A stretch of 64,000 nt of DNA from Nocardioides okcheonensis (GTDB lineage: Bacteria > Actinomycetota > Actinomycetes > Propionibacteriales > Nocardioidaceae): assembly GCF_020991065.1 (NCBI RefSeq), contig NZ_CP087710.1, positions 3,162,001 through 3,226,000 on the forward strand. Reading direction: 5' to 3'. This document shows, piece after piece, positions 12,758 to 48,258 of this stretch. A program made the translations under genes and the position numbers. Position 1 is the stretch's first letter. The number at the start of each line of letters is the position of its first letter. Below the pieces are notes generated by a model. It searched no databases and was not told the origin of the DNA. It saw only the letters and a program-made list of their open reading frames with translations.

Positions 12758-14386
12758 GTGGCCGAGACGACGCCGGGCGTGACGCTGACCGAGGCCCTCG
12801 CGCTGCCCACCTTCCGGCGGGCCGCCCCGCGGGTCGTGGCCGGCGCGGGTGCCGCCGACCGTCCGATCCGGTGGGTGCACGCCACCGAGCGCGCCGACGT
12901 GCGCGACCTGCTCCGGGCCGGTGACCTGCTGCTCACCATGGGCACCGGGCTGCCGGTCGACGACGACGCGGCCGGCTTCGCGGCGTTCGTCGACGAGCTG
13001 GTCGAGGTCGGCAGCGCGGGCGTGGTCGTCGAGCTCGGCCGCCGCTGGTCCGACGCGCTGCCGTCGGCGCTCGTCGAGTCGTGCGAGCAGCACGGGCTGC
13101 CACTGGTCGTGCTCGGCCAGGAGACCCGCTTCGCGGCGCTGGCGCAGGAGATCGGGGAGCGCGTGGTCGACCACCAGGTCGCCGAGCTGCGCGAGGCGCA
13201 GCGGGTGCACGAGACGTTCACCGAGCTGAGCTTCAGCCAGGCCGGTCCGGTGGAGATCCTCCAGGCCGTGCAGCGCCTCGCCGGCGGGCCGGTCGTGGTG
13301 GAGAACGCCCACCACCGGCCGCTCGACTACTTCCCGGGCCCGGACGACGAGGGCGGCTTCCTCGACGGCTGGCCGGCCCGGTCGCGCCGCGTCGAGGTCG
13401 CGGGGCGCACCGGCTGGGACGCCGGCAACGGCTGGCTGGTCACCCGGCTCGGCACGGCCGAGCAGGGGTGGGGCCGGCTGGTGATCGGCTCGGCCGCCGC
13501 GCCCTCCCAGCGGCTGGTCGCGGTCGCCGAGCGGGCCGCGGCGGCGCTCGCGCTGCACCGGCTGCACGACCGGGACCGCGGCACGCTGATGCGCCGCACG
13601 CACCTCGAGCTGCTCACCGGGCTGGTCGAGCAGCCGGGGTCGGAGGAGGTGCAGCGACGCTGCGAGCTCGCCGGCTTCGCGCTGCGGCGTCGGTGCTTCG
13701 CGGCGCTTGTGGTCCGACCGCGGATCGGCGCGTCCTCGCCGGCCGACCTCGACGAGGTCGCCGCGACCGTGGTCCGGGCCGCCCACGGGCTGCGCCTGCC
13801 GGCGCTGGTGTGCGAGGTGGAGCGCGACCTGCGGGTGCTGGTGTCCGCCCCCGCGACCGCGGACGCCGACGACCTGGTCGACCGGGTGGCCGCGCGGGTC
13901 CTCGCCCACCACGACGTGGTGCTCGCCGCCGGCCGCGCGGTCGCCGAGCGGTCCGCGATCGCGCGGACCGTCACCGAGGCGGGGCAGGTGGCCGACGCCG
14001 CCCCGCAGGTCCGCCGGGAGTCCGACCCCGACGTCCACCGGCTCGACGACCTGCACCTGCGCGGGCTGCTGGCGCTCCTCGGCGAGGACGACCGGCTGCG
14101 GCTCTACGTCGAGCGCGAGCTGGCGCCGTTGCGCCGCCACGACAGCGCCGACGGCTCGCGCACCGACCTGCTCGCCGCGCTGCGCGCGCTGCTGCTCCAC
14201 CCGGCGAGCAAGACCGAGGCCGCCGCGAGCCTCCACCTCTCCCGCGCCGCCTTCTACGACCGGCTCGCGCGGATCGAGGCGCTGCTCGACGCCGACCTCG
14301 ACGACCCCGACGTGCGGGTCTCGCTCCACGTCGCCCTCCTGGCCGACGAGCTGTTCAGCGATCCCCGGCCGGCCGGGGATCGCTGA
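12758..14386 (+). CDS. PucR-family transcriptional regulator
   Basis: 542 residues. The N-terminal PucR sensor domain (VTLTEALALPTFRRAAP; IRWVHATERADVRDLLRAGD) covers about 1-140, a GGDEF-like CdaR middle region follows, and the C-terminal PucR helix-turn-helix is near 480-530 (HPASKTEAAASLHLSRAAFY). PucR proteins commonly activate purine, GABA, putrescine or proline catabolism. Its position between a dehydrogenase/aminotransferase/oxidase operon and a plus-strand aldehyde dehydrogenase supports control of this cluster. The GTG start follows a leaderless-type -10. The stop codon lies inside a 34-base palindrome. Confidence 0.87.
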   Translation: MAETTPGVTLTEALALPTFRRAAPRVVAGAGAADRPIRWVHATERADVRDLLRAGDLLLTMGTGLPVDDDAAGFAAFVDELVEVGSAGVVVELGRRWSDALPSALVESCEQHGLPLVVLGQETRFAALAQEIGERVVDHQVAELREAQRVHETFTELSFSQAGPVEILQAVQRLAGGPVVVENAHHRPLDYFPGPDDEGGFLDGWPARSRRVEVAGRTGWDAGNGWLVTRLGTAEQGWGRLVIGSAAAPSQRLVAVAERAAAALALHRLHDRDRGTLMRRTHLELLTGLVEQPGSEEVQRRCELAGFALRRRCFAALVVRPRIGASSPADLDEVAATVVRAAHGLRLPALVCEVERDLRVLVSAPATADADDLVDRVAARVLAHHDVVLAAGRAVAERSAIARTVTEAGQVADAAPQVRRESDPDVHRLDDLHLRGLLALLGEDDRLRLYVERELAPLRRHDSADGSRTDLLAALRALLLHPASKTEAAASLHLSRAAFYDRLARIEALLDADLDDPDVRVSLHVALLADELFSDPRPAGDR

Positions 14387-14423
14387 ACTTGTCGGCCCGT
14401 GCACGGCCTGACAAGTTCAGCGA
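14354..14423 (+). repeat. Three-arm competing hairpin after pucR
   Basis: 14354-14370 and 14371-14387 form a perfect 17-bp palindrome (half TTCAGCGATCCCCGGCC). The right half also pairs with downstream sequence: 14380-14393 (TCGCTGAACTTGTC) is perfectly complementary to 14410-14423 around a 16-base loop that itself contains CCGTGCACGG. The motif TTCAGCGA thus occurs three times, and its middle copy can pair with either neighbour, giving mutually exclusive structures. It may be a terminator for pucR, an attenuator before the cupin/dehydrogenase genes, or a protein-binding array. Confidence 0.7.
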
Positions 14424-36809: not shown

Positions 36810-36833
36810 GAGTCCCCGGATATCCGGGGACTC
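36810..36833. repeat. P1 palindrome, left copy (perfect 24 bp)
   Basis: GAGTCCCCGGAT followed by its exact reverse complement; centre GATATC. It begins 17 bases after the PAP2 stop and abuts P2. The same P1 with one mismatch is at 37991-38014. Confidence 0.95.
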
Positions 36834-36871
36834 TCGTGGTTGGCACCCGAGATCCCGGGTGCGAACCACGA
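36834..36871. repeat. P2 palindrome, left copy (38 bp, 17/19 pairs)
   Basis: Left half TCGTGGTTGGCACCCGAGA, right half complementary except at two positions. Core GCACCCGAGATC/CCGGGTGC is shared with the perfect palindrome at 37951-37992. It ends 16 bases from the DUF559 stop. Confidence 0.95.
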
Positions 36872-36887
36872 GCTCCGGGTACGAAGA

Positions 36888-37853
36888 TCACGCGCCAAGG
36901 CGTCGCCCCTCGCGCCGACGCGACTCGAACACAGCGCGGATCCGCGCGGCGAGGCGCTCGGGACGGGCCAGATCGGCCCACGTCACGCGGACGCAGGTCC
37001 AGCCGGTGAGCTGGCACACGAGCTCCTCGCGCCTCTTCTCGCGCATGAGGAACTCCTCCAGCGTCTCGCCGTCGCGCCGGTGGCGCTCGTACTTGACGCG
37101 CCCGTCGAACTCGACGAACACCCCGTGGTCCGGCCACGCGAAGTCGAGCCTCGCCACCACCGTGCCGCTCTCGTCGCACACCGTCCACTGCGGCTCCGGT
37201 CGCGGTAGTCCCTGGGTGTAGGTCACGTAGCTGAACCGGTCCTCGCCGACGGACTCCAGCCGCGCGTCGGCCAACCGCAGCACGATCGTCGCGGTCAGGC
37301 TCCCGGGCCAGTCGGCGTGCGCCTCGACCTGGTGCTCGAGGTCCTGCAGCGTCATCGCGCGGGCGTGCAGCAGGCGGTTGACCACGACCAGTGCGGGTTC
37401 GACACCCGTGACCGTCGTGACCTCGAAGGCGGAGCGGGGCGCGGTGCTCACCACGACGCCGTGGAGCTCCTCGACGTCGTCGTCGCCGAGCACGCCGCGG
37501 TGCGGGGTCCAGCCCGCGAGCTTGCGGCCGGCACGGTCGGCGCCGAGCCGGGTGGTGTGGACGACGCTGAGGTCGAACCCCCACACAGGGACGCACCGCT
37601 CGACCACGGACGAGACGTGGGTGAGCGCGGTCATCGGGTCGGCGCGGGCGACGACGGCGCGGCAGAGCAGGCGATGGCGTTCCTCCTCCGAGGCCTGCAC
37701 CCACACGGGAGTCGGCACGTACGCGCCGTAGCGGACCCTCGTCAGCGCCCTCGCGCGGACGAGGCGTGCGATCTGGTCGTCGGTCATGCCCTCGGCGATC
37801 AGGTCGCGGCGAAGTCGTACGACGCCGGCGAGGGCAAGCGGTGGCTTCATCAT
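36888..37853 (-). CDS. DUF559 (Vsr-like nuclease fold) protein with AbiEi-like N-terminal helix-turn-helix
   Basis: 321 residues. The N-terminus (LRRDLIAEGMTDDQIARLVR, then RVRYGAYVPTPV) resembles the winged helix of type IV toxin-antitoxin AbiEi antitoxins. The C-terminal 110 residues are DUF559: VARLDFAWPDHGVFVEFDGR then VKYERH, with the D...E-x-D acidic pair of a PD-(D/E)xK-like site, and REELVCQLTGWTCVRVTWADL. A DNA-binding plus nuclease-fold combination suggests action on DNA, but no toxin partner (AbiEii-type nucleotidyltransferase) is adjacent. It is framed on both sides by P1 and P2 palindromes in mirror order. Real function unknown. Confidence 0.82.
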   Translation of the reverse strand: MMKPPLALAGVVRLRRDLIAEGMTDDQIARLVRARALTRVRYGAYVPTPVWVQASEEERHRLLCRAVVARADPMTALTHVSSVVERCVPVWGFDLSVVHTTRLGADRAGRKLAGWTPHRGVLGDDDVEELHGVVVSTAPRSAFEVTTVTGVEPALVVVNRLLHARAMTLQDLEHQVEAHADWPGSLTATIVLRLADARLESVGEDRFSYVTYTQGLPRPEPQWTVCDESGTVVARLDFAWPDHGVFVEFDGRVKYERHRRDGETLEEFLMREKRREELVCQLTGWTCVRVTWADLARPERLAARIRAVFESRRREGRRLGA

Positions 37854-37950
37854 GCGAGTCGGGGTGCCCGTGCTCGAGCCCTCTCAATCCCGTGGGATGC
37901 GGCCTGTGGACAGTGCGTCCGGGAGCGTTCGCGCGTGCTGAGCGCCCAGA

Positions 37951-37992
37951 TCTCCCGCTTTGCACCCGAGATCTCGGGTGCAAAGCGGGAGA
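37951..37992. repeat. P2 palindrome, right copy (perfect 42 bp)
   Basis: TCTCCCGCTTTGCACCCGAG plus A, followed by the exact reverse complement; no unpaired base. Same GCACCCGAGATC core as 36834-36871 but different outer arms. It is about 100 bases upstream of the DUF559 start, between divergent genes. Confidence 0.95.
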
Positions 37993-38014
37993 GTCCCCGG
38001 ATATCCGGGGATTC
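37991..38014. repeat. P1 palindrome, right copy (24 bp, one mismatch)
   Basis: GAGTCCCCGGAT then ATCCGGGGATTC; differs from the left copy by one base (T for C, still a G-T wobble in RNA). It overlaps the last two bases of P2. Confidence 0.95.
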
Positions 38015-38177
38015 GTGGTGGAATTACACAGATGTAGTTCGTCAAGGCGACGCGCCGACTGAAGGTGAAAAAGTTGAGGAAACTGTTCCCCGTGTGACGA
38101 AAGTTGATTAGCGTGCCTCGAGTTGCCCGTGCGATGGGGAAGTCGCACGGGCCTCCGAGACCTCAAGGGGAACCCCC
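38015..38177 (+). promoter_or_regulatory. NlpC/P60 leader region with hairpin
   Basis: This 163-base stretch is AT-richer than anything nearby (AATTACACAGATGTAG, GTGAAAAAGTTGAGGAAACT), as expected for a promoter. GTGTGACGAAAGTTGATTAG is a possible core promoter. A perfect 10-bp hairpin (GCCCGTGCGA at 38125-38134 with 38143-38152, loop TGGGGAAG) precedes AAGGGGAA, the ribosome site. It may be a leader attenuator or mRNA stabiliser; it matches no riboswitch class I know. Confidence 0.5.
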
Positions 38178-48226: not shown

Positions 48227-48258
48227 CGACTCGAGCGGACCATTGTCCGCTCGAGTCG
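48227..48258. terminator. Hairpin between convergent lon and ppa
   Basis: Perfect 14-bp stem CGACTCGAGCGGAC with a 4-base CATT loop, extendable by wobble pairs. A second, 8-bp stem (GTCGAGCG at 48292 with CGCTCGAC at 48310) follows and reuses the sequence TCCGCTCGA. Likely bidirectional termination. Confidence 0.7.

Follow-up and report, generated by a model that had tools for sequence, protein, structure and literature searches.

A gene between mirrored composite palindromes in Nocardioides okcheonensis, and the dispersed repeats that match its ends

We describe a unit found in a 64,000-nt stretch of the genome of Nocardioides okcheonensis (bases 3,162,001-3,226,000; the genome, here called G000, is one contig of 4,471,533 bases); the whole stretch is referred to below as the window. 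In this unit a composite palindromic repeat stands at both ends of a gene for a 321-aa protein. The whole arrangement is best read as a unit that resembles the repetitive extragenic palindromes (REPs) and their REP-associated tyrosine transposases (RAYTs), but that is built on a different enzyme, and we put the probability of this reading at about 0.72. A REP/RAYT-like link between the palindromes and a nuclease-fold protein had been suggested from the window sequence (the original prediction), together with a mirror-symmetric unit and selection on the palindromes. Comparison across species supports this idea from three sources: flanks that match in relatives, flanks that fail to match between sister genes, and empty sites. 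A role in defence, offered in the same place, found no support in this analysis.

The unit and its dispersed A-B element

We use A for the P1-type palindromes, which are outer, short and G/C-rich with a 4-nt centre, and B for the P2-type palindromes, which are inner and about 40 bp long. As judged from sequence, a single gene stands between two copies of the composite repeat, with A outside and B inside, and only one gene fits between the unit's two ends (Table 1). The ends constitute an 85-nt inverted repeat that is 78% complementary at a spacing of 1,035 nt, and the two P1 copies are 96% identical. Both the coordinates and the inverted repeat agree with the predicted mirror order of P1-P2, gene and P2-P1. 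The right P2, correctly described as a perfect 42-bp palindrome, ranks top in score among the palindromes of the window. Within the window, the P1 and P2 cores are present at the two unit ends only.

Table 1. Components of the unit, and a solo palindrome of a second repeat family, by window position
Feature	Position	Strand	Basis
Left A palindrome (P1), outer unit end	36810..36833		repeat and core search
Left B palindrome (P2), 20-nt arms 90% complementary	36833..36872		repeat search, core search, covariation
Left P3, partial repeat of B right arm	36873..36886	+	inspection
Gene for 321-aa protein: AbiEi-like N-terminal half (about 9-196) and Vsr/homing-endonuclease-type domain (about 200-314)	36888..37853	-	homologues, Pfam, predicted structure
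Right P3, degenerate	37936..37950	-	inspection
Right B palindrome (P2), 21-nt arms 100% complementary	37951..37992		repeat search
Right A palindrome (P1), outer unit end	37991..38014		repeat and core search
Solo family-2 A palindrome, perfect 36 bp (core match 14356-14385)	14353..14388		palindrome and pattern search

Across G000 the P1 core occurs at 12 exact places and at 18 when up to two mismatches are allowed (reversed-pattern control, 1), while the P2 core, for which up to three mismatches were allowed, is found at 12 (control, 0). Every one of the 12 P2 places is directly beside a P1, and by eye P3, the partial copy of the B right arm, follows B in most dispersed copies. The two palindromes are present as originally said, but they are really parts of one dispersed composite element rather than a pair. 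A-B-A doublets with a 62-bp period are found in both repeat families of G000 and in the related genome G021, as a minority of the listed places. Some P1-like places in G000 have no P2; beside two of them (L012 and L013) there is sequence similar to a palindrome family with a CACCAGGTGG-like core, which has four copies in a sample of the genome G022 (L398-L417).

The outer arms of P2 had been noted to differ while remaining self-complementary, and the dispersed copies extend that observation. Across the copies, 94.6% of 312 cells in the B arms are paired and 14 cells have changed on both sides, compared with at most 53.8% paired and at most two double-sided changes when the columns are slid by one to three. 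That two of 12 P2 copies flank one gene is only weakly improbable alone (an estimate of about 0.03); the case for a link between gene and repeat is made by the relatives.

Matched flanks in relatives and among sister genes

The listed relatives compared with G000 are Nocardioides and Marmoricola. Homologues at E 1e-20 or better were found in 44 of the 58 genomes searched, G000 counted, and among 197 genomes sampled from the class a profile at 1e-12 detected them in 140. We took the best 80 of 186 encoding loci from one scan. Counted per locus and 100-bp bin, strong palindromes in these loci reach 0.66 in the bin 100-200 bp upstream of the gene and 0.61 in the first 100 bp downstream, compared with 0.02 farther out; 68 loci have one upstream, 62 downstream and 55 on both sides. 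Palindrome abundance was also tried as a genome-wide marker of gene presence, and failed.

Because some upstream counts at the locus of the window gene come from a different, conserved hairpin in front of the NlpC/P60 gene, we preferred a matching test to palindrome counts. The test takes the best ungapped match between left and right flank, in either orientation, with a threshold score of 17, and it was applied to 78 of the 80 loci, two being excluded for short flanks. The threshold was reached in 74/78 loci, compared with 7.6% of mismatched pairs and 1/215 control windows in the same loci, and for 61 of the 78 a locus's own right flank was its best partner. A control gene, PAP2, had matched flanks in 0 of 28 loci (two of 30 were excluded as short). 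In flanks judged to have both palindromes above threshold, A was outside B in 11 of 11, counted by hand without L091 and L124, which are ambiguous, and without the NlpC/P60 hairpins.

More distant homologues behave similarly. At the order level (32-39% identical), flanks matched in 15/19 loci, one of 20 having been excluded as truncated. The class-level set consisted of 30 loci minus one G000 duplicate and one truncated locus, with 10 of the remaining 28 from Nocardioides; 25 of the 28 matched, all 25 in inverted orientation, and L243, L248 and L251 did not. The matched loci span eight family-level groups of Actinomycetes (f1, f2, f3, f4, f12, f23, f31 and f43). The mirror is not universal, however: of the 15 order-level loci that matched, 10 score higher in direct orientation, and the repeats are direct in 8/35 matched loci of genomes with several genes. 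Of the proposed mirror order around the gene, the relatives thus uphold the matched flanks but not always the orientation, since some have direct repeats. It had also been held that P1 and P2 scattered without connection to such genes would speak against the link. They are indeed scattered genome-wide, yet the link to the gene family holds, and scatter as such does not refute it because a REP-like system predicts scatter.

The repeats also distinguish between genes of the same genome. Of the 37 loci in the 15 genomes that have several genes, 35 have matching flanks of their own, whereas the left flank of one gene compared with the right flank of a sister gene reaches the threshold in 0/64 comparisons. 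G008 has five genes, each with a different repeat. A third pattern, the palindrome of gene ends in three genomes, was searched in the 58 genomes at up to two mismatches and lies at 12 places in G001, 27 in G011 and 18 in G025; it also lies at 16 in G007, where the copies are the variant found at one end of that genome's second gene, and at 9 each in G008 and G014 (these two by count alone), with 0 to 3 in the remaining genomes. Searched for in 400 kb each of G002 and G022, the A belonging to G002's gene has two exact copies and one with three mismatches in G002, and none in G022, a genome in which no homologue was found. In 700 kb of G029 the A of the first gene is at 9 places, that of the second gene at 1 and that of G000's second gene at 4. 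In that genome, then, a dispersed family can lack its gene and a gene can lack a large family. The comparison shows that gene lineages own a private repeat, which where counted is scattered too, as solo A-B or A-B-A.

G000 itself illustrates this privacy. A single-sequence search of the genome returned one further clear homologue, 49% identical, plus a weak partial match; a profile search at 1e-12 returned four matches, and two genes were examined. The second gene (G000:C1:437951-438853) is bounded by A and B palindromes that differ from those of the window. Its A, termed family 2, is found at 35 places in G000 at up to three mismatches (control, 0), two of which are the ends of the second gene. 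L271, the second gene copy of G021, contains one in-frame TGA, while the repeat family remains at 36 places in that genome. The eight family-2 A copies that lie from 0.28 to 1.03 Mb of G000:C1 all have their asymmetric 4-nt centre in the same direction.

The locations of the repeats bear on two other explanations. The first is that these are ordinary bidirectional terminators or RNA hairpins that by chance flank a small gene. Any strong hairpin can end transcription, and many solos do lie behind or between converging genes. Against this, the unit's right P2-P1 pair is situated between divergent genes, which, as had been pointed out at the outset, argues against plain termination; no Rfam family reaches its gathering score here; and the family-specific match to one gene, the PAP2 result and the in-frame copies described below would all be left unexplained. 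We regard this explanation as very improbable.

The second explanation is that of a regulator and its regulon, in which an AbiEi-like protein would bind the palindromes as operators and repress its own promoter at the upstream copy, with the sites drifting along with its specificity. AbiEi antitoxins are known autorepressors, the N-terminal half of the protein is AbiEi-like, and one repeat copy does precede the gene start. But the same 85-nt composite is also present behind the gene, family-2 solos are mostly where genes converge (19/30 by a crude frame test) and one is within a coding region, the B arms vary but stay self-complementary, and the conserved nuclease-type domain would have no explanation. 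These points make a regulon improbable.

Two further palindromes of the window are separate from the unit. The hairpin GCCCGTGCGA...TCGCACGGGC (38125-38152) precedes the NlpC/P60 gene, is in the same place in several orthologous loci and is also found in two loci without the nuclease gene; Rfam gives no match to it up to E 1, and it is possibly a regulatory RNA. The palindrome CGACTCGAGCGGACC...GTCCGCTCGAGTCG lies at 48227-48258, and a similar one is present at the L286 site in G029.

Gain, loss and concerted change of the repeats

The gene is placed between the PAP2-family gene and the NlpC/P60 gene in G000, G021, G018 and G029. In G007, whose PAP2 is 90% identical, and in G016, NlpC/P60 follows PAP2 with no such gene in between, so that empty sites of the kind to be sought in close relatives do exist; the one in G007 holds a solo A-B of that genome's own type. 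For family 2, 21/31 loci of G000 (one of the 31 being the gene's own) were located in G021 with both flanks. A comparison of 16 sites between G000 and G029 gave five that are occupied, with the other family in one case and A alone in another; five without an A-B element (two of them with another palindrome); and six assigned to neither class. The alignments of these two genomes contain gains or losses of whole elements and of 62-bp units, and five comparisons gave no obvious target-site duplication. Several near-identical full copies, as in an insertion sequence, were not seen in G000, where the 49% identical homologue is the next best match. Solo copies thus vary in presence from species to species.

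Several individual sites are worth recording. L161 and L162 of G000 are 3.3 kb apart, and G021 has a single element, L272, that shares the outer flanks of the pair, so the intervening segment seems to be missing in G021. The L170 site has family 2 in G000, A alone in G021 and a family-1 element (the family of the window gene) in G029, and its flanks lie apart in six other genomes. At the L006 site, no such element is present in any of eight relatives and another long palindrome is present in two: in G007 and G029 (L327 and L329) this is cgctgtaacgccgggtt...TGTACCCACC, a type with three copies in the 700 kb of G029. Another kind of dispersed repeat, GAGGCTCG...CGCACCTC, is present at L302 and L326 (both G021) and at L328 (G018), where G000 has A-B elements; in one case it is in frame within the chorismate-binding enzyme gene.

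That gene is also the site of a family-2 copy in G000, again in frame (the L289 site; Pfam Chorismate_bind, E 1.4e-82, scanned on the G007 orthologue). Six species have an in-frame A-B element in the identical place and orientation, and G021 has an unrelated in-frame stretch. The elements differ in sequence between species, although those of G000 and G007 resemble each other (score 41). In all five species scored, the best gene-flank match of the element is a gene of its own genome (scores of 65, 39, 28, 26 and 44); the sixth, G016, was left out, having been missed by the search pattern. The next best matches of the G000 element are the sister family in G021 (59) and G029 (34). Repeated insertion at a favoured spot could also produce such a site.

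The gene ends follow a comparable pattern. Because 70 loci fall into only 21 neighbourhoods, the gene is mostly inherited in place. In orthologous groups of 18, 10, 7 and 7 loci, a clear left-right pair is present in 39/42. The locus's own pair outscores the same segment compared with any orthologous locus in 25 of these 39, and the median orthologous score is below the own left-right score in all 39. The gene thus keeps its place while both of its ends are altered in step. The comparisons show such joint change of both ends for genes at fixed loci, and show that a solo copy at one fixed place follows the family of its genome. Given the results at the L170 and L006 sites, replacement in place is clear at the L289 site and the gene ends only.

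These comparisons also bear on the possibility that the system is a relic. The unit could be what is left of a transposon that had its ends copied in the distant past; the protein would by now have another task, e.g., defence or mismatch repair, and the repeats would be passive. The number of family-2 loci shared with G021 and the small number of neighbourhoods are in keeping with such a history. Passive decay, however, would not give ends that differ between species at fixed orthologous loci and yet match each other, and empty and occupied sites differ among related species. A history of this kind seems unlikely to us.

The protein and its relation to known systems

The protein had been called a DUF559 gene product with an AbiEi-like, nuclease-like fold. 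The first label was not sustained: DUF559 (PF04480) matches 0/30 family members at E 0.1, and for the window protein neither Pfam, NCBIfam nor PHROG gave a match in support of it. The second fared better, since AbiEi_4 is found in 24/30 members and the nuclease fold is visible in the predicted structure, and only there; AbiEi_4 is not found in the window protein itself, for which PADLOC gives weak AbiEi and ZorE hits only. No transposase family was found in the Pfam scan of the 30 members, and a search of solved structures by sequence gave no convincing relative (one match at chance level, E 1.2). The predicted fold aligns with AbiEi chains and Vsr-type chains, and RAP-domain chains match the same nuclease-type fold. 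Nine residues, E204, D237, E248 and D250 among them, are invariant in 30/30 members. Conserved acidic residues on a predicted Vsr-type fold point to a Vsr-like nuclease, with catalysis putative. The gene has a ratio of nonsynonymous to synonymous substitution (dN/dS) of 0.20, and phage and plasmid records gave no match at 1e-10.

If the REP/RAYT-like reading is correct, the AbiEi-like half and the nuclease-type domain would recognise the cognate palindrome, either as duplex or as extruded hairpin, and the protein would introduce a cut or a nick there. Through repair, or through copying from other copies, the repeat could then spread to new sites and replace what stands at old ones, which would keep the family uniform, while the protein would be maintained on the chromosome by purifying selection rather than moving as a high-copy transposon. 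We infer binding or cutting of the palindromes from their association with the gene. A more specific and more tentative scheme, which we think possible but would not favour, is palindrome homing without a transposase. Here the Vsr-fold nuclease would break non-identical or extruded copies of its own family and so drive gene conversion; positions would be inherited, sequences would be overwritten genome-wide, including the gene's own ends and in-frame copies in host proteins, and several pairs would operate in one genome without cross-talk.

In REP/RAYT systems (TnpA_REP, IS200/IS605-like Y1, REPINs and REPtrons), as described in parts of PMC2817692 and PMC3116915, a chromosomal gene is likewise set between inverted palindromes that are also dispersed intergenically and are preserved through complementary changes. 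An inverted palindrome pair around the RAYT gene together with scattered copies is the arrangement given for REPs (PMC2817692, in part). Inverted palindromes bound the gene in the window and in 25/25 matched class-level loci, and dispersed copies are present at 12 and 35 places for the two G000 families. There are differences as well: the enzyme here has no HUH/Y1 relation, the end is an A-B composite, a genome can have up to five private families, and by inspection no GTAG (GTRG) head is at a constant place in aligned copies of G000's two families. REPINs have doublets as the replicative unit; the A-B-A doublets observed here, with their fixed 62-bp period, make up a minority of the listed places. 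We class the unit as one that works like REP/RAYT but as a non-member, because the enzyme is unrelated. RAYT-like genes also have variants bounded by terminal inverted repeats (TIRs), the TIRYT genes or TIRtrons, with long inverted repeats at both gene ends that at times form a repeated family (PMC3733652, in part); these have another enzyme, whereas a two-hairpin composite repeat is present here at most homologues tested.

Other comparisons are less close. Unlike Vsr/EDxHD homing endonucleases (Vsr; I-Bth0305I), the gene was not seen in an intron or intein; it has palindromic ends, and its protein has an AbiEi-like half. Homing endonucleases cut the allele that lacks them and are then copied there; alleles without the gene are present in G007 and G016. 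With the type IV toxin-antitoxin system (AbiEi/AbiEii) it shares the AbiEi-like N-terminal half, weakly by sequence for the window protein, but no nucleotidyltransferase toxin gene is adjacent, the neighbours being PAP2 and NlpC/P60, and there is an extra nuclease-type domain. Rickettsia palindromic elements resemble the copies in the chorismate-binding enzyme gene in being palindromic repeats that lie in frame within coding sequence, but the repeat described here has a cognate gene bounded by that same repeat. For Caulobacter, PMC12907096 (in part) reports that a response to DNA damage requires a Vsr-like protein carrying a DUF559 domain; this indicates that such folds can affect the chromosome, and nothing more.

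Searches of open-licence PMC papers turned up no report linking palindromes to this type of protein. The REP literature compared here links REP-type palindromes to a single class of enzyme, the RAYT/HUH transposases, and PMC3733652 (in part) states that no transposase is dedicated to one large REP class, CGTC. Our results suggest a second, unrelated counterpart of the partnership between REP repeats and transposase, in actinobacteria. If this is true, there would be a second enzyme class with private palindrome families, and partnerships between nucleases and palindromes would have arisen more than once. One 4.47 Mb genome has two families and another genome has five genes; with its mapped empty and occupied sites as well, the system is suited to tests of how scattered repeats stay identical.
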